Made by a program: the position numbers and the translations under genes. Shown here piece after piece: positions 14,360-30,192 of a stretch of 30,192 nucleotides of DNA. A model generated the notes under the pieces. That model worked only from the letters and a program-made list of their open reading frames with translations, was not told where the DNA came from and did no database searches. This stretch comes from a virus, in IMG/VR virus record IMGVR_UViG_3300037233_000055, positions 1 through 30,192 of that record. One strand, 5' to 3'. The stretch's first letter is position 1; every line of letters begins with the position of its first letter.

Positions 14360-14396
14360 CTCACTATGTACCGACTCGCCCGAAAGGGGTGCGCAA

Positions 14397-14606: not shown

Positions 14607-14607
14607 A

Positions 14608-14790: not shown

Positions 14791-14791
14791 G

Positions 14792-15043: not shown

Positions 15044-15050
15044 ACGCCGC

Positions 15051-15260: not shown

Positions 15261-17361
15261 GAAAAAACTCACAAGGACGATAACCAGGAGTCCGAAGTCT
15301 CAGGTCGTTCGAGACGCCGGCGCCGGAAAGTTATCGAAAGAAGATTGGGGCATTGTCGCGTCAGATGCGTGGCAGTCGATCATTTCCGCGATCGGTACGC
15401 GCTCTGCGCTAGAAGCCAATCTCCGAACCGCCTACGCGCTCTACGAGCGAGACAACCGCGACGAAGGGGTCGAGGACGATCCGTACGTCGACTCCTCCGA
15501 CCTAACGATTCCGCTCGTCTTCTCCAAGCTGCGCAAGCAGAAAACCGAAGTCGCGTCGCTCACCTTCGTCCCCGATTTCTACCTCTTCACGGGCCAAGAC
15601 GAGAGCTCACAGGCGCAAGCCAGCGATATGCAGGTCCGCTGGAATAGCGATTTCCACAGGCTTCGCGGACCGTATATGTCGTGGCAGAAGGCGCACGACA
15701 AAATGCTGCACATGGCGTTGCGTGACGGCACCGCGTTCATGGAATGCTCGTGGGTTAAAGACGAGCGGATGCAGCGTTACAAGGTCGAGTCGCCCGTAAC
15801 CGACGACACCGGCATGCCGACCGTCGACGAAGAGAGCGGTGAGATTTCGACCAAGCCCGAGTACGTTACGATGCCGGTCACGGTGTACGACGACGCCGTT
15901 CTTAACCCGTGCCTGCTCAAGGACGTGCTCCTTATGCCCAACGAAAGCACGAGCGTCGAGACGGCCGCTGCGGTTGCAATCTATCACCTCTATTACGAGA
16001 GTGACCTGCGCGCGATGATAGAGGATGATATTCTCGACGAAGAGTGGGTGAACCGCGCGCTCGAGTACGACCCGCAGGGATATAGCGATTACGCCTCGCG
16101 CTTCCAGGGCGTCTACAACTGGACGGCGGGCGGGCAGATCGACGTGGGAGTCGGACAGGGCCAAGGGATCGCGGCCAAGGAGTTTGTCAATCGCGGGCCG
16201 CTCGGCTGTTGGGTTGCCTACTCTCGCCAGTATGATTTCGACGGCGACAAAATCGAAGAGCCCAACATCCTTTTTATTCACGAAGTCTCGGGTTACATGA
16301 TCGGTCACTGCCCGGATACCGATATGGCGCCGATGCGTTTGATCGTCGGCTTCGCGCCGTATCCGCGTCCCGATTCGCCTTATGGCTTCGGCGTTCCCGA
16401 ACTTATCGGGCCATTCCAAGCCGAAGCGACGCTGTCGTGGAATCAACGCAACGATGCCGTCTCGACGCGCCTCGAAGTGCCGCTCCTTACCGATACGAGT
16501 ATCCAAATCAAAGATTCGGGAATGTCGTGGGGCAACGGCCGTGTGTGGTGGGTTCTTGGCAACGCGCAGCAAGGCTCGTTGCAAAACGTCCTGTACTATC
16601 CGCAGCTTCCCGAAGTTCCGCTCTCGTCGTATCAGCAAGATCAGCAGGTCCGATCGGATGCCGACTCGGTGCTCGGCGGCTCTTCGCAGCCCGCGACGAG
16701 TCGCGAAAGCGCGGCTGGCGTCAAGACTCGCGCGGGCGAGTCGGACCTCGGAACAAACGATATTGCGATGGAGCTTCGGTACGTCTCACATCAGATTTTT
16801 GACGCGCTCTGGAGCCTGAGATTACAGTACGGTTTCAATCTCGACGGAACGGAACGCAACCCGCCGCAAGGCGCGAAGCCGCTCACTAAACAGATGATGC
16901 AGCTTCCGTACAAGCGGTCCGTCTCGGGCGAAGACGATCCGCTCGACAAGCAGGCGCAACTCGAGGAAATGCTCGGGTTCAAAAAGACGTTCGAAGACTC
17001 GCCGTTCATCCAAGGAAACCTCATGCACCGTTACAACTTCGAGCGCGCGATCGCGAGCAAGTTTGGAATTGGCGGGCTCGACGGAATCTTCGGCACGCCC
17101 GACGACGTTACGAAGATGCAGCAAGAGCAAGAGAAACAGGGCCAAGAGAAGTCCGCAATCGAGAAGCAACAGGCGTACGGCGAGATCGCGACGCGCTACA
17201 ACCGCGGCCGTCCGCAAGCCGGCATGTCGCTTCTCGGACCCGACGATATTGCCAAGCTCTTCGAACCGCCGCCGGGTCAACAGCCACCGGGGCAACCGGG
17301 GCAGAACGGACAGCCGTCGCAGAACGGTGCGCCACAACCCGCCGCAGCAGGTGCGGGATGA
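15250..17361 (+). CDS. Portal protein
   Basis: A 703-residue protein placed directly between terL and the scaffold, in the usual position for the dodecameric ring through which DNA enters the head. The sequence has portal character: an N-terminal helical region (WQSIISAIGTRSALEANLRT), VDSSDLTIPLVFSKLRKQK, a long tryptophan- and aspartate-rich middle, SPYGFGVPELIGPFQAEATL followed by the NQRNDA helix, and a C-terminal helical and then Q/P-rich disordered tail. Its length matches podovirus portals such as P22 (about 725). Conserved residues cannot be checked here, so the call rests on position, size and the PYGFGVPE-type segment. Confidence 0.82.
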   Translation: MPRKKKLTRTITRSPKSQVVRDAGAGKLSKEDWGIVASDAWQSIISAIGTRSALEANLRTAYALYERDNRDEGVEDDPYVDSSDLTIPLVFSKLRKQKTEVASLTFVPDFYLFTGQDESSQAQASDMQVRWNSDFHRLRGPYMSWQKAHDKMLHMALRDGTAFMECSWVKDERMQRYKVESPVTDDTGMPTVDEESGEISTKPEYVTMPVTVYDDAVLNPCLLKDVLLMPNESTSVETAAAVAIYHLYYESDLRAMIEDDILDEEWVNRALEYDPQGYSDYASRFQGVYNWTAGGQIDVGVGQGQGIAAKEFVNRGPLGCWVAYSRQYDFDGDKIEEPNILFIHEVSGYMIGHCPDTDMAPMRLIVGFAPYPRPDSPYGFGVPELIGPFQAEATLSWNQRNDAVSTRLEVPLLTDTSIQIKDSGMSWGNGRVWWVLGNAQQGSLQNVLYYPQLPEVPLSSYQQDQQVRSDADSVLGGSSQPATSRESAAGVKTRAGESDLGTNDIAMELRYVSHQIFDALWSLRLQYGFNLDGTERNPPQGAKPLTKQMMQLPYKRSVSGEDDPLDKQAQLEEMLGFKKTFEDSPFIQGNLMHRYNFERAIASKFGIGGLDGIFGTPDDVTKMQQEQEKQGQEKSAIEKQQAYGEIATRYNRGRPQAGMSLLGPDDIAKLFEPPPGQQPPGQPGQNGQPSQNGAPQPAAAGAG

Positions 17362-17639
17362 CGGCCATTGCTGGCGGCGGCATGACCGCGCAAGAGCGCG
17401 AGCGGCGCGACTCGGCGGCTGCGGCCGACGTACTCGAACATCCAGGGTTTGGAGACTTTCTCAAAGACGCGGCGCGTGAAGCCGAAGCCGCCCGTGGCGT
17501 TATTTTCGACGATACCAAGTCCGAGAAAGAGCAATCGTTCGCGCGAGGATCTCTGAAGGTCCTAAAAAACATCGTGCTCGCCGTCTACCGTCGAGCCAAT
17601 AAAGAAGTGCCGCCGCAAGTAACGGCGCTATTCAAATAG
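17358..17639 (+). CDS. Hypothetical protein, 93 residues
   Basis: ATG overlaps the portal stop (ATGA). Helical and charged: AQERERRDSAAAADVLEHPG, FGDFLKDAAREAEAARGVIF, LKVLKNIVLAVYRRANKE. It lies between portal and scaffold and could be a small head component. No family recognised. Confidence 0.6.
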   Translation: MTAIAGGGMTAQERERRDSAAAADVLEHPGFGDFLKDAAREAEAARGVIFDDTKSEKEQSFARGSLKVLKNIVLAVYRRANKEVPPQVTALFK

Positions 17640-17652
17640 AAAGGACCCCTCA

Positions 17653-18627
17653 ATGAGTCAAGACTTAACGCCGGTTGGCGGCGACGAAGAGGAAGAGCTC
17701 GACGAAACGACACTCGACGAGCAGGAAATACCGGAAGGCGGCGCACCGGAAGGCGGCGAGCCCGACGATGAAGCCGAGGAAATGCCCGATGACCTCCTCA
17801 CAGACGAGGAGCGCGCCGAGCGGACCCGTGAACGCGCGGGCCGTGCCCCGGTTGCGCCAGTTCGCGAAACCGAAGATCGTAGCGCCGTCGTCGCGGAGCT
17901 TCGCGAAATCTTTCAAGGGCTTCGTCAAGAGCAACCGGCGGCGCAACCGCGAGAGCAAGATCGCCGCGTGCCGGCCGAGTTGCAGCCCTTCGTTCTCAGT
18001 GAAGAGCAAGCGCAGCGGCTCACGGACAAAGCGCTCACCGAACCGGGCGGGATCGCCAAGCTAATCGCTGCGGCGGTCAATATCGGCGACAAGCGTGCGA
18101 CGGCGCGCATGGCGCAGTCGTCCGAAGGTCAGTCGGCGCTACAGTCCGCGGGTAGGGTTTTCGTCAACGATTACCTGGAAGATCGGCTCGACGACCCCAA
18201 AGAGAAGTACGGAAAAGCGATCAAGCCGTATTTCAAAGAGATTCTCAGCGGGTACAACGTGGCCGAGCTCGCGAGCATGAACCAAGCCGATCGAACGGCG
18301 TGGTTCGACGAACAGTGGGAACGCGCAACGGGCCGCGCGTACTCTCGCAAGGCGGTCACGAAAGCGGCTCCGTCTCCAGGCGTTGCTCGCGGCGCAGGCG
18401 CTCGACCTGGCGCACCCGGCGTTGGGCGCGTCGTAATCAAGATGACCGACCAGCAGAAAAAAGACCTCCGCGCAGCGTCGCCGCGCCTCTTCGCAGGAGA
18501 AGAAGGCGAAAAGCGCTTCCGCCGGCAGGTTTGGGAGATCGAACACGGCATGACCGGCAACCCGACGGTGCGAGCGCTCACGCGCGAATCGGTCCGCTTT
18601 GGCGAAGCCGTCGGATTCGGAGGATAA
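17653..18627 (+). CDS. Probable capsid scaffold protein
   Basis: The 324-residue protein has a strongly acidic, disordered N-terminus (EEEELDETTLDEQEIPEGG), a helical middle with RSAVVAELREIFQGLRQE, and a basic C-terminal part (VVIKMTDQQKKDLRAASPRL). This acidic-then-helical-then-basic layout and the place between portal and major capsid are typical of scaffold proteins, which bind coat through a basic C-terminus. ATG at 17653 has AAAGGA ten bases before it. No protease gene is visible nearby. Confidence 0.7.
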   Translation: MSQDLTPVGGDEEEELDETTLDEQEIPEGGAPEGGEPDDEAEEMPDDLLTDEERAERTRERAGRAPVAPVRETEDRSAVVAELREIFQGLRQEQPAAQPREQDRRVPAELQPFVLSEEQAQRLTDKALTEPGGIAKLIAAAVNIGDKRATARMAQSSEGQSALQSAGRVFVNDYLEDRLDDPKEKYGKAIKPYFKEILSGYNVAELASMNQADRTAWFDEQWERATGRAYSRKAVTKAAPSPGVARGAGARPGAPGVGRVVIKMTDQQKKDLRAASPRLFAGEEGEKRFRRQVWEIEHGMTGNPTVRALTRESVRFGEAVGFGG

Positions 18628-18630
18628 TAG

Positions 18631-19341
18631 ATGACGACAGAGTTTAATCAAAACGCGCGCCGGCCAATCGAACGGCCGGATATGCGGCTGAACGACGCCA
18701 ACTATCGAACGTATCAACGCTACGCCGGGAGAAAGCTCCTCAAGGAAGGTAGCGGCGTTGTGCTGCCGGCCGGTGTCGTCATCGACGGCCGCCCGTGGCG
18801 CGGATTCAAGCACTCGGTGCAGGTCCAGACCTTCGTAATGAACCGGCCCGAAGAGCTTTTGCTTCATCCGGACGAGCGCTGCAAGTACGTTTGGCGGCCG
18901 CGCGAAGATCCAAAGCATTCAACCGAGGCGCTCGTCGGCCGCGGCTGTTTGCGCCCGGTGGAAATGAGCGAAGTCGACGAGGCATCCGAGCTTCGCATGT
19001 GGTGTTACGAATACGGGGGGTCGGGCAGTAAGGACGAATCGGGCGACCCGCAGATGGTCGGCCTGGTAGCGGTCGGCGATATGGCGCTCTTCGAAGTCGC
19101 TCCGCGTTGGGCGTATGAATGGTACGACGCCGCGGTCGACGAGGCGTTTTCTCGGCTTCAAGGTCTCGAGCCAGGGTTCAAACAGGACGCCGAAGACTTT
19201 GCGGCTCGCAACCGCGGCATGCGCGTTCATGGGTCGTCGCTCGGCGTCGAGGAGGGCGACAATCAAACCGTCGCTCAGGAGATTAGAAATCCGATCGGAC
19301 CAGGGGCGCCGTTTGCGGACGCGGCGAAAGGCGGCCGATAG
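18631..19341 (+). CDS. Hypothetical structural-module protein, 236 residues
   Basis: ATG at 18631, three bases after the scaffold stop. Contains RPPDMRLNDANYRTYQRYAG-like start (residues 11-35), a tryptophan-rich beta middle (RPWRGFKHSVQVQTFVMNRP, CKYVWRPREDP) and APRWAYEWYDAAVDEAFSRL. The last gene before the terminator at 19365. Head-related by position; no family recognised. Confidence 0.68.
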   Translation: MTTEFNQNARRPIERPDMRLNDANYRTYQRYAGRKLLKEGSGVVLPAGVVIDGRPWRGFKHSVQVQTFVMNRPEELLLHPDERCKYVWRPREDPKHSTEALVGRGCLRPVEMSEVDEASELRMWCYEYGGSGSKDESGDPQMVGLVAVGDMALFEVAPRWAYEWYDAAVDEAFSRLQGLEPGFKQDAEDFAARNRGMRVHGSSLGVEEGDNQTVAQEIRNPIGPGAPFADAAKGGR

Positions 19342-19364
19342 ACACACCCGTTTATCGTGAGGGG

Positions 19365-19403
19365 AAAAGCTCGGCTTAAAAAAGGCCGGGCTTTTTCTTT
19401 TTT
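19365..19403 (+). terminator. Strong rho-independent terminator
   Basis: GCTCGGC (19369-19375) pairs with GCCGGGC (19385-19391) with one G-T pair, extended by flanking A and T bases, and is followed by TTTTTCTTTTTT. It closes the portal-scaffold unit. Confidence 0.85.
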
Positions 19404-19446
19404 ACCCCTACCGCGCTACGCGAGGCTCTCGACCGCTGCTCGCTAG

Positions 19447-20403
19447 ATGCTTTATTTGGTTCCAATGGGAATTACGTTGAATCCTATCCGCCCCGCGCTT
19501 GGACTCGTACAGGGTGGCGAGTATCAGCCGTACACGATTTACCCGGAACAACCCGGAGCTATCTTTAGCGCCGGAGATTTTCTTCAGGTTTACACGACCG
19601 GCAACATGACCTACCCGACGCCCGCGGGCTCGCTCGCAACTTTTCAGCCGACCTCGGCGCCGACGGTCGTGCAAGCCGGTTCGGCAAGCGCCGCAAACCC
19701 GGCGCATACGCTCTACGCCTGGTACACCTTAATCGGAACCGGCGGCGTGGGCGTGATCGAGTCGCAGCCCTACGAGATCGGCCCGATCGTCAACCCGGCG
19801 GGATATAACGCAACGGTCGAAGTCCTGGCCGACGGCAACTATCCGGCCGCGGCAACACACTTTGCGCTCTACGTCGGAACGCTTCCGGGCCAGCAGTGGC
19901 TCCAGGTCGCGACGACGGCGCTCGGTTCAGCCGCAACGATTCCGGCCTACCCGCTCACGAACAACACCGGAGTCAACCGGTCAATAAACGACCCGTCTTC
20001 GGGAATCGTCGGCTACGCGGCCAACGATGCCGGCAGCGGTTACGCGCAGCGTGAGGGCGACATTCTCGCCGCCGGGTACAACTGGCGCGCGCTCTTCGGC
20101 GTCGACCAATCACTTTCGGGCAACCAGGCGTTGCTCGAGCAGTACATGGCCGCGGTGGTCAAACTGCAAAACGTCCCGGTCACGATCTCGCTCTTGCAGC
20201 CGTGGGCGTATCAGACAGGCACGGCCGGAATCGTCTACTCGACGACCTACGGCGTCTTCTATCTGGACACGACGCAGAGTAACGGAATCTTTTCGATCCA
20301 GCGTCCCTACGGAGGTTTGGCAGGTCCGTACAATCCAAGCGGGGTGCAGCCCGGTAACGTCTACCAGCCTGTCACGGGCATCTTCATAGCGGGGTTAGCA
20401 TAA
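19447..20403 (+). CDS. Structural protein upstream of the major capsid, 318 residues
   Basis: Starts at ATG 19447; no clear ribosome binding site is visible and ATG 19465 or TTG 19477 are alternatives. The sequence is beta-rich and low in charge: YQPYTIYPEQPGAIFSAGDF, TLYAWYTLIGTGGVGVIES, ATHFALYVGTLPGQQWLQVA, with a C-terminal GLAGPYNPSG segment. This looks like a virion decoration or coat accessory protein. Position directly before the major capsid supports that. No family was recognised. Confidence 0.65.
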   Translation: MLYLVPMGITLNPIRPALGLVQGGEYQPYTIYPEQPGAIFSAGDFLQVYTTGNMTYPTPAGSLATFQPTSAPTVVQAGSASAANPAHTLYAWYTLIGTGGVGVIESQPYEIGPIVNPAGYNATVEVLADGNYPAAATHFALYVGTLPGQQWLQVATTALGSAATIPAYPLTNNTGVNRSINDPSSGIVGYAANDAGSGYAQREGDILAAGYNWRALFGVDQSLSGNQALLEQYMAAVVKLQNVPVTISLLQPWAYQTGTAGIVYSTTYGVFYLDTTQSNGIFSIQRPYGGLAGPYNPSGVQPGNVYQPVTGIFIAGLA

Positions 20404-20404
20404 A

Positions 20405-21394
20405 ATGGCGGGCGGAAACTACGGAACCGGCCAGTGGCAAACTAAATCCTCGAAGGTTGCCCAGGCCCACCGGATCGCTCAGATCGTCTCGAACCGATCG
20501 CTCGAGGAGCCGCCGTTTTGGCCTAAGCTCTTCGCGATGGCCGAGCCCCCGGTCAACCAATCTTTCGTAGAGTTCGGCCAGTTCGCCGAGCTCGGTCTGC
20601 TCCAACCGAAGGCAGAAGGCGAAGTTCCGGCCTACGACGTGCCGCTCGAGCTCGTACCGTCGCACGGCGAGTTCCAGACGTTCGCGTTGATGACGTCAAT
20701 TTCGCACGAAGCGCAGTACGAAGATCCGTACGACATGATGGGCAAGGCCGCGCCGATGCTCGTCGACTCGGAGCGGGTCACGGAAGACACCTACATTCAC
20801 TCCGTAATCAACTTTGGGTTCGATCCGTCGTTCCCACTGTACGACGGACAGCCGCTCTTCTCGGCAAACCATTTACTCGCGCCGGTTCCAGGGCCGAACG
20901 GTCCGGTCTCGGCGATCAATCAGACCTACTCGAACCTCATCGGCAACGTCGCGCCGACGGCCGAAGCGATCCAAGACGCGCTGCTCAACATGAGCTTGCT
21001 GCGCTCCGATCGCGGCCTGCCGTCCAACCGCATCCCGGTCTACGTCGTCGGGCACCCGTTCATCGAGAAGGTCCTCAAGGAAATCGTCGGATCGGTAAGC
21101 GCTCCGATGACGTCGGACAATCGGACGAACGTCCAGTACGGCATCCAGGAAGTCGTCGCGGATCAGTACCTCACGAACCCGTATGCCTGGTATCTCTCGT
21201 CGGCGCCGCAGGGCGTCGATCCTAAGAGCGGCCAGTCGCTCATCGCGAGCTTCCAGTTCCGCAATCACATGCGGGCCTGGTTCGAACCGGCAACGCTTTC
21301 GTGGAACATCGCGATTCGGTTCCGAGCCTTGTGGATGGCGCGCGACTGGCGCGGCATAAACGCAAGCGCCGGCGCCGGTCCGTACTCGGTCTAG
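20405..21394 (+). CDS. Major capsid protein, Mu gpT-like (HK97 fold)
   Basis: A 329-residue coat protein. An N-terminal helix-rich arm (AQAHRIAQIVSNRSLEEPP) is followed by beta segments and by FPLYDGQPLFSANHLL, matching the DGxPLFSAxH motif of Mu-like gpT major head subunits. Later segments are RGLPSNRIPVYVVGHPFIEK and the C-terminal core AWYLSSAPQGVDPKSG, then FQFRNHMRAWFEPATLSWNI. Length fits the family (about 300-330). ATG at 20405 directly follows the previous stop. A head-fold coat protein is confident; the gpT assignment is good but from pattern memory. Confidence 0.83.
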   Translation: MAGGNYGTGQWQTKSSKVAQAHRIAQIVSNRSLEEPPFWPKLFAMAEPPVNQSFVEFGQFAELGLLQPKAEGEVPAYDVPLELVPSHGEFQTFALMTSISHEAQYEDPYDMMGKAAPMLVDSERVTEDTYIHSVINFGFDPSFPLYDGQPLFSANHLLAPVPGPNGPVSAINQTYSNLIGNVAPTAEAIQDALLNMSLLRSDRGLPSNRIPVYVVGHPFIEKVLKEIVGSVSAPMTSDNRTNVQYGIQEVVADQYLTNPYAWYLSSAPQGVDPKSGQSLIASFQFRNHMRAWFEPATLSWNIAIRFRALWMARDWRGINASAGAGPYSV

Positions 21395-21402
21395 GGGGCG
21401 CC

Positions 21403-22188
21403 TTGGCGAATCCAGTAGTAAACATTCCGCCGACCGGACCTGCCAACACGGGCCAATATGGCACGGCCGCCGGTCCGCAGAACCCGTACCAAAACGCTCC
21501 GGGCAACATCGGCGCGTACATCAACGCAAAAGCGCACGGTGCGGTCAAGGCATGGGGCTTCGGCCAGCTTGCGACCGTCCCGATGGTGGTCGACGGCGTG
21601 CTTGGTGCCGGTCTTACTGGCTCCGCGGTATCCGGATCGATCATCCTGCCGCAGTATTGCAAGATTCCAAAGGTCGCGATCGGCTTTGCGACCGCCGATC
21701 TTTTCAACGGAACCGAGACGCTCAACATCGTGGTCGAATCGGCCGGCGATTACAACCCGGCGATCATCGCGGGAACCGGCTATCCGAACGCCGCGATGGC
21801 GAACGGTTCGCCCCTCGGCGCCGGCAAAGGCTACGGTGTAACCTATACGCCGGGCATCGCGCAGACGACAGGACCTGGCGACAACTCGGGTTGGGCCGGT
21901 TATCCGGCGCAGTACGCCGCACCCGGAACCTGCCTCTTCGGAACCGACATTGGCATCGGACCCGTGTTTTTCACGAGCCCGTCCGCGGGTACGACCGCCG
22001 GCGGTTCGCAAGTTTTCCCGACGACCGAATGGGATACGGTTTACTGCCCCGGAACGATCCTGTCGCTGCGCGCGGTTACGACCGGCAGCACCGGCGACAT
22101 TACGGGCCTGGTCGTGACGCTGCTCATCCAAGTGCTCGACAAGTTTATCGGGAATCCAACTCGCCCGATTCCCTGTCTGACGTTCTAG
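21403..22188 (+). CDS. Structural protein after the major capsid, 261 residues
   Basis: TTG at 21403 is the likely start because AGGGGG lies four bases before it; a longer frame upstream would overlap the capsid gene. Beta-rich, glycine- and alanine-rich protein: GPANTGQYGTAAGPQNPYQN, VSGSIILPQYCKIPKVAIGF, ETLNIVVESAGDYNPAIIAG, TEWDTVYCPGTILSLRAVTT. Looks like a head decoration or coat-associated protein. No family recognised. Confidence 0.68.
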   Translation: MANPVVNIPPTGPANTGQYGTAAGPQNPYQNAPGNIGAYINAKAHGAVKAWGFGQLATVPMVVDGVLGAGLTGSAVSGSIILPQYCKIPKVAIGFATADLFNGTETLNIVVESAGDYNPAIIAGTGYPNAAMANGSPLGAGKGYGVTYTPGIAQTTGPGDNSGWAGYPAQYAAPGTCLFGTDIGIGPVFFTSPSAGTTAGGSQVFPTTEWDTVYCPGTILSLRAVTTGSTGDITGLVVTLLIQVLDKFIGNPTRPIPCLTF

Positions 22189-22192
22189 CCTG

Positions 22193-22717
22193 ATGGCCGG
22201 TTCTCGCCTAGCGGTCGTCGAAGTAGATCCGGTGACGACAACTAGCCATAACCGATTTTCTGAAGTCTTGAAACGCGCATGCAAAGCATGCGGCTCTGAG
22301 TTCGAGACGATTTACAAGAAAAAGGTCTACTGCACGAAAGCCTGCTATCTCGATTTTTGGTATGACCGCCTTGGCGGACGCAAGAAGGTCGCCGAGTTGG
22401 GCAAGAAACGGCGCACGGGTCCCAAAGCTGAGCAGTACCGAGCTCGCAAGCGTGTCAACTGGTTAAAACAAGCGTATGGTATAACGCTGGAGCAGTACAA
22501 AAACCTGTGCGAGATTCAGGAGGGATGCTGCGCTATTTGCGGCGTCGTTCCGAGCAAAGAACTGTTTCACGGTTTACACGTAGACCACGACCATTTGACC
22601 GGAAAAATACGCGGCCTTCTTTGCCGCTGGTGCAACTCGATGCTCGGAAGAGTTGAGGCCTGCCCATCCTGGCTATCAAAGGCAGAATCGTATCTCGCTG
22701 GCGAGGCGGAAGTTTAA
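22193..22717 (+). CDS. Endonuclease VII-family nuclease (inserted)
   Basis: A 174-residue nuclease with an N-terminal zinc ribbon (CKAC at 30-33, then YCTKAC to Cys51) and the endonuclease VII domain: YGITLEQYKNLCEIQEGCCA, ICGVVPSKELFHGLHVDHDH, then TGKIRGLLCRWCNSMLG. His132-His134 and Asn148 of the DHDH and CRWCN motifs fit the His-Me finger active site; the four cysteines bind zinc. In phages this family resolves branched DNA or acts as a homing nuclease. Sitting between capsid and structural genes suggests a mobile insertion. Confidence 0.87.
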   Translation: MAGSRLAVVEVDPVTTTSHNRFSEVLKRACKACGSEFETIYKKKVYCTKACYLDFWYDRLGGRKKVAELGKKRRTGPKAEQYRARKRVNWLKQAYGITLEQYKNLCEIQEGCCAICGVVPSKELFHGLHVDHDHLTGKIRGLLCRWCNSMLGRVEACPSWLSKAESYLAGEAEV

Positions 22718-23181
22718 TGGCGGGATCTGGGGCTGGCTTAAATTACGCGATCAAGATTCTGCTGAAGGCCGCTGCGGCGTCTTCGGCTGTTTACGATTCG
22801 GCCATATTGCACGGCCCGCTGCTGTGGGAAGCGGCCTTCTTCTCGAAGACGAGCTTTCAGATTTTAGCGCAAGCGGGAACCACGGACCCGCTTTCGGGGT
22901 GGAGCGTTGCGTGCTACGGAACGCACGACTACCGCGCTTACATAATGAACCAGGACCCGGTCGTCGATCCCGTTGCGTGCCCCGCAGGGTTCACGCTTCC
23001 CGATACGTCGTGGGTCGAGATCGCGCTTCCGCAAAGCGAGACAACTCCAACTTGGACGAACCCGATCGTTGCGTTCGGCGTCACGGCCTTCTCGCCCGAA
23101 CCGTGGGTCGCGGTCCGCGTCGTCGCAACGGCAGCCTCGGCGACCGGCGACATAGCGATCACCTGCACCCGTATCCCGTAA
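22717..23181 (+). CDS. Structural-module protein, 154 residues
   Basis: ATG in a TAATG junction with the nuclease gene. Beta-rich: SAILHGPLLWEAAFFSKTSF, LSGWSVACYGTHDYRAYIMN, PEPWVAVRVVATAASATGDI. The layout suggests a small virion protein such as a decoration or head-completion factor. No family recognised. Confidence 0.62.
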   Translation: MAGSGAGLNYAIKILLKAAAASSAVYDSAILHGPLLWEAAFFSKTSFQILAQAGTTDPLSGWSVACYGTHDYRAYIMNQDPVVDPVACPAGFTLPDTSWVEIALPQSETTPTWTNPIVAFGVTAFSPEPWVAVRVVATAASATGDIAITCTRIP

Positions 23182-23205
23182 GTGTTTACGACAAGGAGTT
23201 CAAAA

Positions 23206-23475
23206 GTGGCCGCAACCAAGAAAACCAAGAAGCCCTCGATGCCCAAAGCGCACAAGCCCGCCGGCGGAAAGTCCGCGCGTGGCGTCAAGTTCGGCGGCCG
23301 CAAAGGCGGCATGAAGAAGGGCGGCATGAAGAAGACGTCGCGCAAGAAGGGCGGATCGAAGAAGATGCCGTTCGGGGCGACCAAGGCTCCCGGCGCGCGC
23401 AAGTCGCAACCGGCGATGAAAAAGGCCATGGGTGGCAAGATGGCCGGCATGAAAAAGAGTCGCAAGAAGAAGTAA
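23206..23475 (+). CDS. Lysine- and glycine-rich protein, 89 residues
   Basis: GTG at 23206 has AAGGAG seven bases upstream; the longer frame from 23182 lacks one. Repeats of KGGMKKGGMKK, SRKKGGSKKMPFGA and KKAMGGKMAGMKKS dominate. No hydrophobic core; probably disordered and nucleic-acid or virion bound. Third lysine-rich protein in the late region. Joined to the next gene by TAATG. Confidence 0.62.
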   Translation: MAATKKTKKPSMPKAHKPAGGKSARGVKFGGRKGGMKKGGMKKTSRKKGGSKKMPFGATKAPGARKSQPAMKKAMGGKMAGMKKSRKKK

Positions 23476-23594
23476 TGAAGGGTTGCGCTTTCGTCTACGA
23501 CGATGAGCCTTCTCCGGGATATTGCGGCTTACCTAAGCGCGATCACCCGGTTCTAAAGTCGCACGCCCACTACGTTCCAAAGAAGACGCAATGA
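23475..23594 (+). CDS. Cysteine/histidine micro-protein, 39 residues
   Basis: ATG in a TAATG junction and a stop overlapping the next ATG (ATGA). MKGCAFVYDDEP is followed by GYCGLPKRDHPVLKSHAHYV, a C...C...H...H set that resembles a tiny zinc finger. It lies in a longer chance open frame, but only this end is coding. Confidence 0.5.
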   Translation: MKGCAFVYDDEPSPGYCGLPKRDHPVLKSHAHYVPKKTQ

Positions 23595-24154
23595 TCCACC
23601 TCGTAGCGCCCCGTAGCCAAAACACGCTGAAGGTTTTCACGCGCGACGGGTCACTATGGAAGTATTTTGAGTGCGGAACAGATGCGTGGGGGAACCATGG
23701 GGTGGGAGACGGCGGCGATCCATTACCGCCGTGGGGTTTTTCATGTTGGATGCCGATTGGGCACTACATTCTCGGTCCCGTTGACGTATTTGACACGCCG
23801 ATCGACAGCGAAGGCTATGGGCAAATCCCGGTGCTCGACGTCGACGCCGGCACTCTCGCAAAGCTCGTTCAAGGCGGATACGCGACGGTCAATGGCCTAA
23901 CGGCCGTCATCGGCGGACTCGAGGCGCCGCTCGCGCAGTTGTCGCAGTACGATCGCTCCGGCATAATGATTCACTGCGGAGGGAGTAACGCTCCCGACCC
24001 GCTGGCAGACAACCAGGGTCTCTATCGCACCTTCGGCTGTACGCGGATGCTCAACGCCGATTGGCGCGAGCTCGCAGCGTGGCTCCAACCGCTCGAAGCG
24101 GGAAACGTCATCGTTTATACGGCGCTGGAGACACCCGCAGACCTGGGGCAATAG
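23591..24154 (+). CDS. L,D-transpeptidase (YkuD)-like protein, unusual active site
   Basis: A 187-residue protein. Beta-rich start (NTLKVFTRDGSLWKYFEC) leads to GIMIHCGGS (His128) and, 19 residues later, RTFGCTRMLNADWREL (Cys150, Arg152), then VIVYTA. This is the YkuD pattern IHG...SHGCxR, where the cysteine performs transpeptidation or hydrolysis of peptidoglycan stems, but the histidine of SHGC is Phe148 here. ATG overlaps the preceding stop (ATGA). Phages use such folds as endolysin or tail-associated wall enzymes. The fold call is moderate; catalysis is uncertain because of the missing histidine. Confidence 0.6.
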   Translation: MIHLVAPRSQNTLKVFTRDGSLWKYFECGTDAWGNHGVGDGGDPLPPWGFSCWMPIGHYILGPVDVFDTPIDSEGYGQIPVLDVDAGTLAKLVQGGYATVNGLTAVIGGLEAPLAQLSQYDRSGIMIHCGGSNAPDPLADNQGLYRTFGCTRMLNADWRELAAWLQPLEAGNVIVYTALETPADLGQ

Positions 24155-24157
24155 CCC

Positions 24158-25057
24158 GTGCTTGTGGATCAAATAATTAAACCGGCCCGAACGCTGGCGA
24201 AGGACCCTGAACCGGGGACCTATTCGAACGATGCGCTCCTGGGGCAACTCGACCTCGTTTGCCTCGACGTTATTTCGAATATCAAGTTCCCGTTCGCGCG
24301 CATTAGTACGTCGACGATCGCCGGGCAGGGAGCGTATTTGCTTCCCGAGACCCCGATCGATGACGGCACCGGATGCGTATGGCTCAACGGCGCGCTTCTT
24401 ACGAAGACCGATATTGAGACGCTGCAGGGCCAGCAGATCGGGTACTACGATTCGACCGGGTTCGGTACTCCGAACGCCAACAGCGATGGCCCGACCGCGA
24501 ACGCGGGAATGTTCGTTCCATCGTGGACGGTGGCGCCGCCGACGACCTTTCCGATGCCGAACTACTCGAACCTCGTATCGTTCACGGCTCCTTGGTCGCC
24601 AGGCTGCAATCGTGGAAAGTACGCGATTCACGGCGGCGACCTCATCATCGTTCCGCCTCCGAACGCCTCGGCGCAACTCGATACGCACGGGAATCCGATT
24701 CCGAACCTCGTGGTCGATATGTGCATCAGTGACGCCTACGTCGGCCCGTACACTTGGAATGCTGCGACGGTGCAACCTCGCTGCCTCACGAACGTCGGAC
24801 AGCGTATTTGGTTTCCAAACAACTTTCTCAACCTGCTCGTCGCCGGGCTCGTCGACCGAATGCTGGCCGCCGACGACTCGGCCAACTCACGCACGCGAGA
24901 TTGGGCGGCCGAGCAGTACCGCGACCAAACGAACAAGATGCTTTTTTGGGCCAAGAGCTATCGGTCTTACGACCGAATAAACCTGCAGACGAATCGATCG
25001 CGTTACACCGGATCGCGGTGGCGTCGCAATACTCAATACGGCGGAGGATACCCTTAG
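24158..25057 (+). CDS. Probable head-tail adaptor or connector protein
   Basis: A 299-residue protein starting at GTG 24158. An N-terminal helical part (DQIIKPARTLAKDPEPGTYS, LLGQLDLVCLDVISNIKFPF) is followed by beta segments with AYLLPETPIDDGTGCVWLNG and a C-terminal helix (NLLVAGLVDRMLAADDSANS, AAEQYRDQTNKMLFWAKSYR) and an arginine-rich tail (RSRYTGSRWRRNTQYGGGYP). This order resembles phage adaptor proteins after the capsid. The match is by layout only. Confidence 0.5.
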   Translation: MLVDQIIKPARTLAKDPEPGTYSNDALLGQLDLVCLDVISNIKFPFARISTSTIAGQGAYLLPETPIDDGTGCVWLNGALLTKTDIETLQGQQIGYYDSTGFGTPNANSDGPTANAGMFVPSWTVAPPTTFPMPNYSNLVSFTAPWSPGCNRGKYAIHGGDLIIVPPPNASAQLDTHGNPIPNLVVDMCISDAYVGPYTWNAATVQPRCLTNVGQRIWFPNNFLNLLVAGLVDRMLAADDSANSRTRDWAAEQYRDQTNKMLFWAKSYRSYDRINLQTNRSRYTGSRWRRNTQYGGGYP

Positions 25058-26146
25058 ATGAAACGTCTTTTTACCGGCCTCATCGGGCTCGCGCTCTTAG
25101 TGACGCTGGTGAGCGTTCTCGGACCTTTTCGGCTCGTTGCTATCGGCGCTTCGCCGCTTCCAAGCGGGTGCTATACCGATTCGAGCGGCCTAGCTGTTTG
25201 CGGCCCGAATTACGCTGGACCCGGCGGAACTCCAGTGACGCCGAGCCCAATACCAAATGACACCGTCATGGGGAATATCAGCGGAGTTTCGGCGACCCCC
25301 GCGCCAGTCGGTGTAAGCGCATTATTCGATTCGATTTACGGTAGCACCCAAGGGGAAGTTCTCTATCGCGGAGCGTCGGCATGGCTTGCGCTTGCGCCCG
25401 GGACAGCTGGGCAGTTTCTCGAGAGCGGAGGCGCTGCCGCCAACCCATCTTGGGCCTCTGCTGGCGGCGGAGGTGGAATCGTACCTCAGCCAAGTCCAAC
25501 GAGCAGCGCAAATGTTGGGTACGTGTGGCTCACAAAGGGGCTCGTTATCGGGCCGACACCGAGCGCCGCGGCGACCTATGTGCCGCAGGCGTTACAACTC
25601 TCTACGCTATCTGGCCAATGCAATAACGGAACCGTATTTTGGGGAACTCAGGGCTCCGACCTTGGCGTCCTGGGGGACGTATTCGCATTCGATTGCAATC
25701 CGGCTGGAAGCGAGGAATTTTGGGGCGACCATAGTGGCAATATGGTTGCGCGCAACTCGGTTCTCGAGGCGAACGATGCCGGCAGCGGAGGCTTTATCTT
25801 TTACCAGGCGTCAACGGAATTTGACAACTGCGCGTGGGTAGGGCAGGGAGGGCAAGGAATTAAAGTATCGCAGCCAAGCGGGTCTGACCAATGCCCCGTT
25901 TCCTTTGCGGCGTCGCAAAACAAAGGACAGGTTAGCTGTACACTTTCAGCCCTCACATGCACAGCTACCGCAACGGTTATTTCTGGAATGGTATGCATTG
26001 CGGCATACGACGGGACGGCCACGACCGTCACGGCGGCGCTTCTCTTGCCGCTGGAGGTCAACGTTTCCGGTACGACGATGAGCGTTAAAATGCAAGGCGC
26101 TGCGACCGCAAGCGGTACGGCAGCGGCGGACTACCATTGTCACTAA
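25058..26146 (+). CDS. Exported or membrane-anchored fibre-like protein
   Basis: A 362-residue protein beginning ATG at 25058 with an N-terminal signal or anchor (RLFTGLIGLALLVTLVSVLG, then FRLVAIGAS). The middle has GTAGQFLESGGAAANPSWAS, a sequence type repeated in phage tail fibres. The C-terminal part is serine- and cysteine-rich (GQVSCTLSALTCTATATVIS). A signal peptide on a tail-fibre-like protein is unusual; a moron gene or a membrane-bound receptor block is possible. No family recognised. Confidence 0.6.
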   Translation: MKRLFTGLIGLALLVTLVSVLGPFRLVAIGASPLPSGCYTDSSGLAVCGPNYAGPGGTPVTPSPIPNDTVMGNISGVSATPAPVGVSALFDSIYGSTQGEVLYRGASAWLALAPGTAGQFLESGGAAANPSWASAGGGGGIVPQPSPTSSANVGYVWLTKGLVIGPTPSAAATYVPQALQLSTLSGQCNNGTVFWGTQGSDLGVLGDVFAFDCNPAGSEEFWGDHSGNMVARNSVLEANDAGSGGFIFYQASTEFDNCAWVGQGGQGIKVSQPSGSDQCPVSFAASQNKGQVSCTLSALTCTATATVISGMVCIAAYDGTATTVTAALLLPLEVNVSGTTMSVKMQGAATASGTAAADYHCH

Positions 26147-26239
26147 CAATACTTGGCTATATGGTTATCGCAGTAGCCTTCCCGCGGTTTCCGGTAACGG
26201 TGTGGCGTGCGGGCATCCGCAAGCCTGAGAAACCGATCA

Positions 26240-26530
26240 ATGTCGGATGAATCTGACGTTCCAGTTGCTGCGAAATACGATCGGAAATGGCATAGCCGCG
26301 TCGATCACACCCTCTTTGGATTCAAAAATGACGATAGCAATATATGGGTCGACGGTCTCCTTCAAAACCTCGCGGATATGCGGCGGCTCGAATCTATCTT
26401 TATTAAGATCGGCCTGCCGCTCATTGCAACCGGCGTCATCTCGGTGTTTCTAAACATGGTTCACAACTATAAACTCGTCAACACGTTCTCTGAGGCACTC
26501 GGTCACTTTGCGAAAGGATACCTCAAATGA
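26240..26530 (+). CDS. Holin-like membrane protein, 96 residues
   Basis: ATG at 26240 is chosen over a GTG 11 codons upstream. One membrane span is clear at about residues 57-75 (IGLPLIATGVISVFLNMV), preceded by an amphipathic helix (NIWVDGLLQNLADMRRLESI), the arrangement of several small holin-related and XhlA-like proteins. The stop overlaps the next ATG (ATGA). Function as a holin is plausible given the neighbouring membrane protein and the wall-enzyme-like gene upstream, but not proved. Confidence 0.58.
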   Translation: MSDESDVPVAAKYDRKWHSRVDHTLFGFKNDDSNIWVDGLLQNLADMRRLESIFIKIGLPLIATGVISVFLNMVHNYKLVNTFSEALGHFAKGYLK

Positions 26531-26826
26531 AGATTAGCTTACCCGCGCTCCTTGCCAAAATAGCAGGCGGGGCGCTCATCGGACTCGGCCCACTCCTTAG
26601 CCTTTTTTTCCCAAAGCAGGCGACCATTTTCAACGCGGCCTTCGGCTCGACCGGCATCGTGGTTCTCGTCGCCGGGCTCATCGTTCAATCCCTGCAGCCC
26701 GTCAATAAGCTCACCGACGACGCAATCGCCGTAAATTCGCAAGGCGTCAAGACCGGAGACAACGTAACTACCACAACGCTGGCGCCAATCCAGGCGCCCG
26801 CGCGCCGTCTAATAGGAGGCTCCTAA
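26527..26826 (+). CDS. Holin-like membrane protein, 99 residues
   Basis: ATG overlaps the previous stop (ATGA). Two hydrophobic stretches at about residues 12-30 (AGGALIGLGPLLSLFF) and 40-58 (STGIVVLVAGLIVQSLQP) are probable membrane spans; the tail (DDAIAVNSQGVKTGDN) is polar. Two-span layout and pairing with the membrane protein before it suggest a lysis pair. A GGAGG site for the next gene lies inside its end. Confidence 0.6.
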   Translation: MKISLPALLAKIAGGALIGLGPLLSLFFPKQATIFNAAFGSTGIVVLVAGLIVQSLQPVNKLTDDAIAVNSQGVKTGDNVTTTTLAPIQAPARRLIGGS

Positions 26827-26828
26827 CC

Positions 26829-27077
26829 ATGGCACCAGTTCCACAAACCCCCGAAGTTGCGACGACCGTCGCCACGCTCCAGAAAATCAGACCGACGATC
26901 TCGCCGATCTTGCAGAAGGTCCTCGATTTCCTCATTGGCATCCTAACCGGAGTCGGCGGAGACTTGAGCCTAAGCGGCAATTACAGCAAGTCCCAAACCG
27001 GCGACATTCTCGGGAACACCTACACGTTCACTGAGACGGTTGACGGCAGCGTCGACGTCAAGGCAGTTCCGAGCTAA
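26829..27077 (+). CDS. Hypothetical protein, 82 residues
   Basis: ATG at 26829 with AGGAGG twelve bases upstream, overlapping the end of the previous gene. A helix with some hydrophobicity (SPILQKVLDFLIGILTGVGG) is followed by a beta-rich half (GNYSKSQTGDILGNTYTFTE). May be a membrane-associated or virion protein. No family recognised. Confidence 0.58.
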   Translation: MAPVPQTPEVATTVATLQKIRPTISPILQKVLDFLIGILTGVGGDLSLSGNYSKSQTGDILGNTYTFTETVDGSVDVKAVPS

Positions 27078-27091
27078 AAAGGAGAACGCAC

Positions 27092-28174
27092 ATGGCAGCG
27101 CTGTTTAACTATAGTTGCAATAACATCGTCACGGCATCGCTGCCTGGCGCGTACGCAAGTATTTTCGGCTCGCCAACGGTTGGCTCGGGTGACGGCCCGC
27201 AGGGCATCAACACGATTCACTGCAACGGAAACACGGAAGGCGTGTACCTTCCTAACGTCGCTATCAACATCAATGGAAACGGGCTTATCCTGGGAGCCGG
27301 GTTTGACGTAACCGCCTTTGGAAGTGGCGGAACTGGCCTGTATTCGATCGGGTCTAATCTCGGATTAACCGCAGTTATTAGTTTGGTTCTAGGGGCGGAC
27401 GGCTCGCTGCAAATAGTTTCGACCAGTGGTAGCGGAAACCCGACTGTCTTGGCCTCGTCGGCGTCGGGTACATTTACGTTTGGAAATCGGCATGAAGTCG
27501 AGTTTATTATTTCGGCGTTTTCTAGCAGCGGCACGGCGACGGTTAACCTAGACGGAGTTCCCGTCACTAACCTTATTACCGTCGCAGTTTCAAACCTAGC
27601 CTCACTGCAAGATGGAGCAACGATCCATTCGGTTCTTGCTGGCTGCACCAACCAGGAAGTATCTTCGGGGTTTGCCGCTGAGTCAACGCCGATCGTTATG
27701 GACTCGACGTACGCCTTTGATACGTCTGGATCATTCTGCAACGCTCCAGTCGGTCCGGCGATTTCCGTTCCAATGATTCCAAACGGAGTCGGTCAGGAAT
27801 CATCATGGGCTCCGAACGGAGCCGCGCTCGGGTGGGAGTGTATTAGCGAGATTCCGCCCGACGGCGACACGACGTATATCAGCAGTGATACCCCTACGCA
27901 GGAAGAGGCGTGCGCGCTTTCTGCGCCAGTCGGCATCAGTGGAGTTTACTGCGTTTCGGTCATCGGCGATCAGCGCCAGGATACGTCGGGCGGCGGTCGC
28001 ACGATCGAGCTCGGGCTCGGCAACGGCACGACTCGCTCTTATGGAGGCGCGTGGGGGCTCGGTACGACGTACAAGATGAACACGACTCCGTTTAGCGAGA
28101 ATCCGTTTACGTCGTCGGCCTGGACGCTTGGCGCGATGACCGGGCTTCAAGTAGCGGCTTTGCTGGCTAGTTGA
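27092..28174 (+). CDS. Lectin-like virion structural protein, 360 residues
   Basis: ATG at 27092 has AAAAGGAG seven bases upstream. The protein is almost entirely beta-rich: VYLPNVAININGNGLILGAG, TGLYSIGSNLGLTAVISLVL, GNRHEVEFIISAFSSSGTAT, VNLDGVPVTNLITVAV, and ends FTSSAWTLGAMTGLQVAALL. The concanavalin-like strand pattern and the SAWTLGxMTGLQ end are typical of phage fibre or tail-spike-associated proteins that bind glycans. No catalytic residues identified. Confidence 0.62.
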   Translation: MAALFNYSCNNIVTASLPGAYASIFGSPTVGSGDGPQGINTIHCNGNTEGVYLPNVAININGNGLILGAGFDVTAFGSGGTGLYSIGSNLGLTAVISLVLGADGSLQIVSTSGSGNPTVLASSASGTFTFGNRHEVEFIISAFSSSGTATVNLDGVPVTNLITVAVSNLASLQDGATIHSVLAGCTNQEVSSGFAAESTPIVMDSTYAFDTSGSFCNAPVGPAISVPMIPNGVGQESSWAPNGAALGWECISEIPPDGDTTYISSDTPTQEEACALSAPVGISGVYCVSVIGDQRQDTSGGGRTIELGLGNGTTRSYGGAWGLGTTYKMNTTPFSENPFTSSAWTLGAMTGLQVAALLAS

Positions 28175-28175
28175 T

Positions 28176-28847
28176 ATGAGCGGCTTTGGCCGAATCACCC
28201 AAGAGACGATCGAGGTCCTTGGGCCGGACGAAGGCTTTGGCCGAATAACGCAGGAGACGGCCGAGGCGCTCGGGCCTTCGCCTTCAACCGCACGGATCAC
28301 GCAGCTTTACGCCGAGGTGCTCTCGTCGGTCGAAGCGAGCGCGCGCGTTACGCAACTCTACGCGGAGCCCCTTGGGCCGCCGACTCCACCCGACGTCTCG
28401 GCACGCATAACGCAGCTTATCGCGGAAGCTCTCGGCCCTCCGACGACGTTTGCGCGCATCACGCAGTTGGTTATCGAAGCACTTGGCCCGGTCGCAGCGG
28501 TGCCGTGCCTCATACCGTACCCGCTCATCTTTGTAGGCAACGTAAGCGGAGCGTTCTACGAAATGAAGGATATGGGCGCCGAGACTGTTCCTATTTCGAT
28601 TGCCGATTCGACGGTAGTCATTAACGATGCGAGCGTCGTAACGATTACGCAGTATCTCACTCAAGACGGCGGGTGGATAAACTGGAGTCCACAGGATGGA
28701 GCGCTACAGGTAGCGCTATCGAATGGCTTACCCGTGAGAACGCTTTGGGTCGTTACGAACCTCGCGCGTGCGATGCCGCCGCAGATCCAGGTCTATGCTT
28801 CTTCGCTCATCATGCCGCTATGGAAGCAGCTATGTTCTCCGGGGTAG
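28176..28847 (+). CDS. Protein with six 17-residue repeats, 223 residues
   Basis: Residues 3-106 are six copies of a repeat with core ARITQLxxEALGP: ITQ or VTQ at residues 7, 24, 41, 58, 78 and 95, so the period is 17 residues, with one spacing of 20. The C-terminal half (residues 108-223) is beta-rich: CLIPYPLIFVGNVSGAF, STVVINDASVVTITQYL, WINWSPQDGALQVALSNG and LPVRTLWVVTNLARA. Repeats of this sort (ARVSQLVVEVL type) occur in phage tail-region proteins. ATG at 28176, one base after the previous stop. The repeat predicts a fibrous or solenoid part; its ligand is unknown. Confidence 0.7.
   Translation: MSGFGRITQETIEVLGPDEGFGRITQETAEALGPSPSTARITQLYAEVLSSVEASARVTQLYAEPLGPPTPPDVSARITQLIAEALGPPTTFARITQLVIEALGPVAAVPCLIPYPLIFVGNVSGAFYEMKDMGAETVPISIADSTVVINDASVVTITQYLTQDGGWINWSPQDGALQVALSNGLPVRTLWVVTNLARAMPPQIQVYASSLIMPLWKQLCSPG
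28185..28495 (+). repeat. 51-base tandem repeat in the fibre-region gene
   Basis: The DNA encoding the six ITQ repeats recurs with a 51-base period (one 60-base step), with GGCCGAAT or CGCATNACGCAG-type conserved blocks and codon drift between copies. Protein repeats are better conserved than the DNA. Confidence 0.6.
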
Positions 28848-29206
28848 CGGATATGCTGGCGGCGCTCAAATCGCAGCCGCAGAATGGGCCGCTCTACACG
28901 CAGACGTTCCCGTGGGTTCCGAACGTCGGGCCGCTCGTGATTTCGTTTGCGGGCAATCAGCCGATCGGGGCGGTCTATATTTCGAAGGTTGACGTTCCGA
29001 TTGCGTTAAGCGCAGAACCGGTGCCGCCGCTCGGCAACCCGTTTTATACGGCTACGCCGCCCGACGGCGGGAACAACCCGCAGACGATTCCGCTTCCACC
29101 TGGAACGATACAGGTCACGCTTACGGCGACGAGCGCAGAGACGTACTATGTGGTCGCAACGTCGGGAATCGCCCGGCTTTTGATGGAAGGGAGTTCCTCG
29201 ACATGA
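28832..29206 (+). CDS. Tail-region protein, 124 residues
   Basis: The ATG at 28832 is preceded by GGAAG five bases upstream and overlaps the end of the repeat gene; ATG 28853 is an alternative. Beta-rich: QTFPWVPNVGPLVISFAGNQ, IGAVYISKVDVPIALSAEPV, QTIPLPPGTIQVTLTATSAE and TYYVVATSGIARLLMEG. Its strand layout resembles parts of the neighbours on both sides. The stop overlaps the next ATG (ATGA). Confidence 0.6.
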   Translation: MFSGVADMLAALKSQPQNGPLYTQTFPWVPNVGPLVISFAGNQPIGAVYISKVDVPIALSAEPVPPLGNPFYTATPPDGGNNPQTIPLPPGTIQVTLTATSAETYYVVATSGIARLLMEGSSST

Positions 29207-30192
29207 CCGCACCGATTCAACCGACAAACTACGACATCCAAGTCTACGCGCTCGGGCAGGCGGGGCCGCTCGGCAGCGACGCATGGCTTCAGTGGGGCGG
29301 CCCTGGCAATCCCACCTTCGGCGCGCTCACCGTATCGTTCGTCTCGGGGCTAGCGGTTAAGAGCTTATGGTTCCCTGACCCGCAAGGCCCGATGAGCTTC
29401 TACGCGGGCGACAGCGCTACGGGAACGCCGTTCTATGTGACCGACGGCTCCGTGGGCGAGCTCGTCTCGATTCCGAACGACGCGCCGGTGGTCACGATCA
29501 CCGGGCCGGCGACGGCCTTCTATTTCTACGCTTCGACGATTCCGTACACGCCGTTCCGGACGGCTACGCCGCCGACGGTGGACGTTACCGTTACCGCGCC
29601 GATCACCAACTCGGGAACCGGCACCGCGCCGATCCTCGGGCTTGCTACTCCGCTCGCCGTTATGTATGGCGGTAGCGGCTCCGTCGATCCGTCGCTCCTC
29701 TCTGGCACAAACGTTGTAATAACTGGCTCGTGGCCCAACCAAACGATCTCGGTCATCCAGGGCGCCGGCGGCGTGCAGAGCGTTGGAGTCGATGCGCCGA
29801 TTATTCTGAGCGGCACGGCTTCGAATCCGATCATCGGATTGGAGACGCCTTTGCCGCAAAACTACGGCGGTACGGGGATCGCCAATCCGTGGGCCAAGGG
29901 CGGCACGGGAATCGACGTCAACGGCAGCAGCGGTATTAACGATTCTTCGTTCCAGTGGATCATCAGTAACACGGGAGTCCTGGGTATCAACCCGGCTGCG
30001 CTCGGTTTGCTGGCTGGCAACATTCTACTGGATTCTGACGGCGGCACGATCGCGATCACGAACCCGACCGGAAACAAGATTAACCTCGAGACGTCGGCGG
30101 CGGTGTCATCGCTTCCAGTCTACGCGCCCGGAGGCTCACAGTTAAACAACCCGCATATCGTTGCGAGTAAAGCTGCCGCCTATACGGTGACT
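29203..30192 (+). CDS. Tail fibre protein, N-terminal part (runs off the right edge)
   Basis: ATG at 29203 overlaps the previous stop (ATGA); the frame is open through the last base, giving at least 330 residues. It has the glycine and asparagine rich beta structure of phage fibres: AWLQWGGPGNPTFGALTVSF, SGLAVKSLWFPDPQG, LAVMYGGSGSVDPSLLSGTN, and the fibre-type NYGGTGIANPWAKGGTGI, then SDGGTIAITNPTGNKINLET. The GGTG motifs are common in tail fibres. Full length and receptor-binding tip lie outside the window. Confidence 0.72.
   Translation, partial: MTAPIQPTNYDIQVYALGQAGPLGSDAWLQWGGPGNPTFGALTVSFVSGLAVKSLWFPDPQGPMSFYAGDSATGTPFYVTDGSVGELVSIPNDAPVVTITGPATAFYFYASTIPYTPFRTATPPTVDVTVTAPITNSGTGTAPILGLATPLAVMYGGSGSVDPSLLSGTNVVITGSWPNQTISVIQGAGGVQSVGVDAPIILSGTASNPIIGLETPLPQNYGGTGIANPWAKGGTGIDVNGSSGINDSSFQWIISNTGVLGINPAALGLLAGNILLDSDGGTIAITNPTGNKINLETSAAVSSLPVYAPGGSQLNNPHIVASKAAAYTVT

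Follow-up and report, generated by a model that had tools for sequence, protein, structure and literature searches.

In LdtMt2 the catalytic triad is described as Cys354, His336 and the backbone of Ser337, and the oxyanion hole as the backbone NH groups of His352, Gly353 and Cys354 (PMC3605043). For LdtMt2, Csd6 and Bd1075 the triad is given as a cysteine, an upstream histidine and the backbone carbonyl of the next small residue (PMC3605043, PMC4599014, PMC8938487). A 2025 review writes the YkuD motif as phiGphiHG(S/T)-X10-(S/T)XGCphiR(M/L), where the X of (S/T)XGC stands for any residue (PMC12729407). Some YkuD enzymes act as L,D-endopeptidases or carboxypeptidases (PMC12729407, PMC4599014, PMC8938487), and L,D-endopeptidase activity is on record for LdtCd2 and LdtCd3 (PMC12729407).

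YkuD lysins of phages have also been described. PhaLP holds 10 YkuD lytic proteins (PMC8310338), and Mic1 gp80 is a late-expressed L,D-transpeptidase which its authors consider possibly intended for lysis (PMC11237433). Our search of 50,697 phage records returned five records of three phages; the protein of the isolated phage S-CBS4 is labelled endolysin or N-acetylmuramidase in its records ('endolysin' in RefSeq), and those of B23 and S-CRM01 are recorded as hypothetical proteins. The subfamily variant presented here is new, and among the open papers listed by our searches, taken by title and abstract opening, we found no report of this subfamily or of dead YkuD homologues.

A YkuD-domain gene behind the phage head genes

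The window, by which we mean the whole stretch of DNA analysed, is a virus record of 30,192 bases that also encodes a DnaB-like helicase, a PD-(D/E)XK nuclease, RecT, a large terminase, a portal-like protein and a capsid protein. After the capsid region lies a plus-strand gene (23591..24154, with the ATG at 23591 and the stop ending at 24154) for a YkuD-domain protein of 187 amino acids, identified by its reading frame, by Pfam and by a structure model. Residues 102-167 match PF03734 YkuD at 25.2 bits against a cut-off of 23.4 (E 2.7e-5). The motif reads IMIHCGGS...RTFGCTRM, and its codons all lie on the plus strand: His128 (23972..23974), by homology the catalytic general base (PMC4599014 and PMC3605043 for the role); Thr147 (24029..24031), the S/T of (S/T)XGC and by homology the counterpart of S351 of LdtMt2; Phe148 (TTC, 24032..24034), at the site of the histidine in canonical SHGC and variable among relatives; Gly149; Cys150 (24038..24040), by homology the nucleophile; and Arg152 (24044..24046), the arginine two after the cysteine which is typical of L,D-transpeptidases according to PMC8263019. 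The initial annotation had described just such a YkuD pattern, with Phe148 in place of the SHGC histidine and His128 and Cys150 kept, and the reading frame agrees with it.

An AlphaFold2 model built from 30 window and locus sequences is of moderate confidence (mean pLDDT 67.7, pTM 0.71), with an average pLDDT of 58-70 over residues 121-150. In VIA-align all 50 entries among the matches listed are YkuD-type enzymes, the best being 5bmq (Z 10.3, 2.5 A, 114 residues), followed by Csd6, Bd1075, Pgp2, LdtMt2 and B. subtilis YkuD at Z about 10. Foldseek placed LdtMt2 chains at the top, with three matches at E <= 0.001 and query-normalised TM-scores of only 0.34-0.50 among the matches listed. The predicted fold is thus the beta-sandwich of YkuD enzymes (VIA-align, Foldseek) and no other fold was seen in this comparison; the proposed L,D-transpeptidase-like family is borne out by Pfam, fold and motif together. 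Searches of PHROGs and NCBIfam, a direct sequence search of solved structures and a plasmid search gave no match to the protein, and a simple hydropathy scan found no hydrophobic segment in it.

Like LdtMt2 and B. subtilis YkuD, the window protein combines this fold with a catalytic cysteine, an upstream histidine and (S/T)XGC, and the arginine after GlyCysX is shared with many L,D-transpeptidases (PMC8263019). The R and M of the review motif are present too. It differs from these enzymes in having phenylalanine for the SHGC histidine, HCGG(S) for HG(S/T) and no hydrophobic N-terminus, and it departs from the review motif also by threonine for the hydrophobic residue after the cysteine and by a longer spacing; identity to L,D-transpeptidases is 10-18% over the aligned part. 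Csd6, Pgp2 and Bd1075 share the fold at Z 10.1-10.2 in VIA-align, and DpaA is among the Foldseek matches listed. As in the window protein, the residue before GlyCys is not histidine in the active hydrolases DpaA (Ile) and Csd6 (Lys174). However, the arginine kept by the window protein is missing from DpaA, Csd6 and Bd1075 (PMC8263019, PMC8938487); the DpaA/Csd6 type has Ala, Asn or another non-Arg residue two after the cysteine, where the window protein has Arg152. Moreover DpaA, Csd6, Pgp2 and Bd1075 are bacterial envelope enzymes, unlike this phage protein, and an NTF2 domain in Csd6, Pgp2 and Bd1075 is a further difference. With the phage YkuD lysins (B23 gp319 and the S-CBS4 protein) the window protein shares a YkuD domain of tailed phages and the signature H...(S/T)XGCxR, and gp319 is 53% identical to it over residues 116-160. 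Unlike these, it stands alone, without a GH19-like or glucosaminidase partner, has its own DAWGN and PPWG..CW.P.GHY stretches, has no PHROG match, and belongs to a close subfamily in which histidine before GlyCys occurs in none of the 11 members that keep the catalytic pair.

Variation at position 148 and its meaning for catalysis

Identity to six close relatives is 54-96%, and their residues at position 148 are Y, F, F, E, F and E; the sequence of a seventh (L005) ends before the motif. A sequencing error or frameshift at Phe148 is ruled out by these six, which have Tyr, Phe or Glu and never His. The close subfamily comprises 14 sequences, host-genome copies included, and His128 and Cys150 are intact in 11 of them, with F in five, E in four, Y in one and D in one at position 148. 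Histidine is found there in none of the 11, the window protein among them; the initial annotation had allowed for a sequence error revealed by histidine in all close homologues, and 0 of 10 homologues with the catalytic pair have it.

The same variability extends to a phage-type set of 113 distinct domains which takes in the wider phage family around gp319 (Synechococcus phage B23). The motif is contained in 112 of these, the exception being the cut-off L005, and position 148 is H in 67, Y in 14, L in 11, M in nine, F in six, E in four and W in one, so that 45 of 112 lack the histidine, and Arg two after the cysteine is present in all 112. The pattern scans had the HGG stretch, the H and the GC built in, and only the arginine count and the identity of the residue before GC are free results. 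A tree of 80 representatives, made with that residue masked, requires at least 14 switches between H and non-H, of which the well-supported branches force at least six; this was a quick build with long branches flagged by the program. In an alignment of 30 sequences His128, Gly149, Cys150 and Arg152 are invariant and position 148 varies. Within the phylum of genome G001 histidine is found here in 28 of 29 YkuD loci, a count that covers the top-scoring loci of a single phylum and favours canonical enzymes. On the sequences compared, the missing SHGC histidine marks a naturally variable position and is no sign of a dead enzyme.

Both triad side chains of LdtMt2, Csd6 and Bd1075 are present in the window protein as Cys150 and His128, and by analogy its catalytic histidine is His128, not the residue at the SHGC position. 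The idea that His128 might be used in a changed way is not needed; it occupies the position of the catalytic base in solved enzymes. In Csd6, which is active, the residue before GlyCys is Lys174 (PMC4599014), and the sequence of E. coli DpaA, also active (PMC8263019, PMC10653827), has Ile there (SIGCYAM). In LdtMt2 the kcat/Km of beta-lactam hydrolysis is 15.6 M-1 s-1 for H352A versus 47.2 for wild type, a loss of about 3-fold, with values of 5.9 for H336N and 3.0 M-1 s-1 for S351A and an ambiguous result for C354A (PMC9094749). The side chain of LdtMt2 His352 hydrogen-bonds meropenem (PMC3605043), and a substrate complex shows it linked to the donor stem by water; the authors of that complex hold these contacts to be important for the diaminopimelate residue (PMC11410929). 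These LdtMt2 mutants and contacts, along with the activity of Csd6 and DpaA without the histidine, suggest that Phe148 replaces a residue on the substrate side; by this analogy it should tune substrate recognition more than chemistry. The SHGC histidine does matter in ordinary cross-linking enzymes, given its presence in 28 of 29 loci and the contacts of LdtMt2 His352.

The initial annotation had further supposed that the protein may be inactive, serving a structural or inhibitory purpose as a dead YkuD fold. The subfamily does have members that are, by sequence, truly dead, with Arg for the catalytic His128 and Gly for Cys150: L218 (9156-9701, minus strand), L219 (9658-10221, plus strand) and L220 (9291-9809, minus strand), from genomes G147, G092 and G145. 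These homologues, at 35-37% identity, were found in three of 149 genomes searched, and they had no Pfam match up to E 0.1. They illustrate the appearance of an inactive member. Judged by its residues, the window protein is not among them. It and 10 others keep His128 and Cys150 while position 148 varies, and both the roughly 3-fold effect of H352A and the characterised active enzymes without the SHGC histidine leave the supposition unsupported. Selection points the same way: comparison of the window gene with each of five relatives gives dN/dS values of 0.15-0.19, and among six phage-clade genes the values are 0.15-0.24 in the 14 of 15 pairs that allowed a calculation. The window gene and the phage clade are under strong purifying selection, though this alone is no proof of catalysis. 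A dead window protein is very improbable, and the protein is very probably an active enzyme.

Gene neighbourhood and lytic context

We consider the best explanation, with a probability of roughly 0.6, to be an active peptidoglycan L,D-hydrolase serving as a lysin of a tailed phage whose host is probably an Eremiobacterota bacterium. In such an enzyme Cys150, activated by His128, would attack the carbonyl at the L-centre of stem-peptide residue 3, in the L,D bond to D-Ala4. The oxyanion would be held by the backbone NH groups of Phe148, Gly149 and Cys150, and the acyl enzyme would be resolved by water. If this bond is cut in the stem that served as donor of a 4-3 crosslink, the crosslink would open, so that the enzyme could act as an L,D-endopeptidase or carboxypeptidase lysin, released through a holin at the end of infection. 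The suggestion of a different kind of wall enzyme, made in the initial annotation, is plausible in this form, as a hydrolytic lysin; with Arg152, a transpeptidase feature, retained, the sequence does not separate hydrolysis from transfer.

Support for a lytic role comes from relatives. Among five B23-type proteins scanned, three have an N-terminal Glucosaminidase domain (PF01832), one has a C-terminal GH19-like module which lies below the Pfam cut-off and is an endolysin by PHROGs, and one is standalone with no PHROG match; gp319 of Synechococcus phage B23 has a GH19-like module as well. The standalone members, four of the seven proteins compared with PHROGs and the window protein too, had no match there, and the lysis label therefore comes from the fused partners. 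In genome G032 a YkuD gene, which scores 18.8 bits and thus falls under the Pfam cut-off, overlaps with its start the final 4 bases of a Phage_holin_4_1 gene; a tape-measure gene lies upstream. At L217 (1935-6871), from the metagenome-assembled genome (MAG) that also holds the window's phage, an Amidase_2 protein with a TIG domain, a subfamily YkuD protein (D at position 148) and a GH25 lysozyme are clustered with a further protein that has sub-threshold alpha/beta-hydrolase matches. On a 1.7-Mb contig of G043, L206 (9398-16601) brings together a LuxR-type regulator, an intact YkuD protein (E at position 148), a PLD-family protein, a T4-lysozyme-like protein (E 3e-12 against solved structures, no Pfam match at E 0.01) and a large protein.

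Other observations concern these and similar loci. The L206 cluster resembles an arsenal of envelope-attacking enzymes. In the prophage-like L221 (8641-9680) the 5' end of a THGC-type YkuD gene lies within the 3' end of a Phage_holin_4_1 gene, an arrangement resembling a pair of holin and YkuD endolysin. That the gene preceding YkuD in L100 and L175 encodes a spanin was kept as a lead, the matches being weak (Rz-like spanin, E 0.056).

In the window itself, two small membrane genes lie 2-2.4 kb downstream of the YkuD gene on the plus strand. One encodes a 107-aa protein with one hydrophobic segment (26207..26530), by hydropathy a weak candidate for a lysis membrane protein, and the other a 99-aa protein with two hydrophobic segments (26527..26826), the nearest of this kind at 2.4 kb and a weak holin candidate on the same basis, with copies at 42% identity in L009 and L012. 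Neither had a family match or a holin match, no holin family was matched in the window, and Pfam, applied to 36 of the window's ORFs, recognised no further lysin family.

The gene lies directly after head genes in all seven phage-clade relatives checked, a position which fits a virion enzyme as well as a lysin. The order capsid, gene 21552, gene 22717, basic protein, YkuD and gene 24158 is the same in L009, L010, L011 and L012; L005 has this order as far as YkuD, where the locus ends, and L013 and L176 have the same gene order with no match to the basic protein. The basic protein, strongly so and Lys/Gly-rich with 97 amino acids, is encoded directly upstream of YkuD (23182..23475, plus strand) and in the same place in L005 and L009-L012, and directly downstream a phage gene for 299 amino acids (24158..25057, plus strand) is likewise in place in L009-L012. 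A virion-associated enzyme with active YkuD chemistry, packaged and opening the wall locally during DNA entry, would agree with a gene fixed between the capsid-region genes and the 299-aa gene in all four loci that extend so far, with the upstream order in L005, L013 and L176, with the very basic neighbour and with a YkuD protein lacking a hydrophobic segment. Yet gene order alone does not show packaging, and relatives in other phages have holin or endolysin contexts. We regard packaging in the virion as rather unlikely, and a lysin function when infection ends as reasonably probable.

Some features of this region may be recorded in their own right. The basic 97-aa protein is perhaps a virion or DNA-binding protein. 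An Endonuclease VII-type HNH gene (22193-22717) stands beside the head genes and is probably a mobile insertion, since L010, L011 and L012 lack it and have its neighbours close to each other at this place; another HNH gene is found at 11441-11932. The basic-protein and YkuD genes are joined by a 39-codon ORF (23475-23594; two Cys, three His), which overlaps the stop of the first and, through ATGA, the start of the second, and for which L012 has no space. The site of a gene for 362 amino acids with a hydrophobic N-terminus (25058-26146), which L009, L010 and L012 match only partly, is a variable spot amid conserved genes.

Host, alternative roles and implications

The host is likely an Eremiobacterota bacterium. 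An identical copy of the gene occurs in a MAG labelled Candidatus Eremiobacterota, on contig PMUK01000233.1. This contig is phage sequence, collinear with window positions 13591-30192 at 99.6%, and in another part of it (L222) the earlier genes of the window recur with 100% identity of their proteins. We did not accept the MAG by itself as evidence of the host, a weak basis given that the contig is phage in both parts compared and only binned. Stronger evidence is provided by L100 and by cousins in the phylum. In the prophage-like contig L100 the flanking DEAD-box helicase matches that of G089 at 79% identity (228 residues) and that of G118 at 87% (174 residues), in a comparison made within the phylum of G001, to which both belong; as this covers one phylum, the host is inferred. 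No tRNA was found at the L100 edge. The subfamily alignment matched in seven of 149 genomes of the phylum of G001, one of them (G032) having a B23-type gene.

PF03734 is present in 29 of 118 genomes of this phylum, and to say that 89 of 118 lack it overstates the absence, because PF03734 misses some subfamily members and genome completeness is not given. G141, G147, G092 and G145 had no PF03734 match over the threshold, though G141 has an intact subfamily copy (L216), and a second subfamily copy in G001 (L217) was missed by PF03734. All PF03734 matches in G001 and G043 belong to the subfamily, and these genomes may lack YkuD enzymes of the ordinary cross-linking kind. This would suit a phage transpeptidase that makes L,D cross-links or exchanges terminal residues while infection proceeds and so strengthens or marks the wall, for instance to block superinfection; such a role would also agree with Arg152 and Thr147, residues that the protein shares with L,D-transpeptidases. 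However, the absence in G001 and G043 is weak evidence, since PF03734 misses real subfamily members such as L216 and L217; by hydropathy there is no sign of a secretion signal, as an early periplasmic enzyme would need, and relatives have lytic fusions and neighbours. A wall-modifying transpeptidase is improbable.

According to gene calls made with a custom script for the host-genome loci, a LuxR-type (GerE) regulator gene adjoins each of the pseudoenzymes L218, L219 and L220. One could imagine a three-way story in Eremiobacterota, in which phages use YkuD lysins without the canonical histidine and dead host copies downstream of a LuxR-type regulator serve as decoys, inhibitors or sensors of peptidoglycan fragments. 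We think this improbable; if it were true, the dead host copies would act against the phage enzyme or descend from it.

The lysin reading provides a candidate wall-attacking enzyme for phages of Eremiobacterota, a phylum with no reported cultured member before 2022 (PMC9758169). The SHGC histidine is a poor marker of activity, being repeatedly replaced by Tyr, Leu, Met, Phe, Glu or Trp beside a kept catalytic pair, and annotators who read non-His YkuD proteins as dead would overlook a class of phage wall enzymes. The natural set of His, non-His and dead members is suited to tests of the role of this residue and of bond cutting versus bond making.
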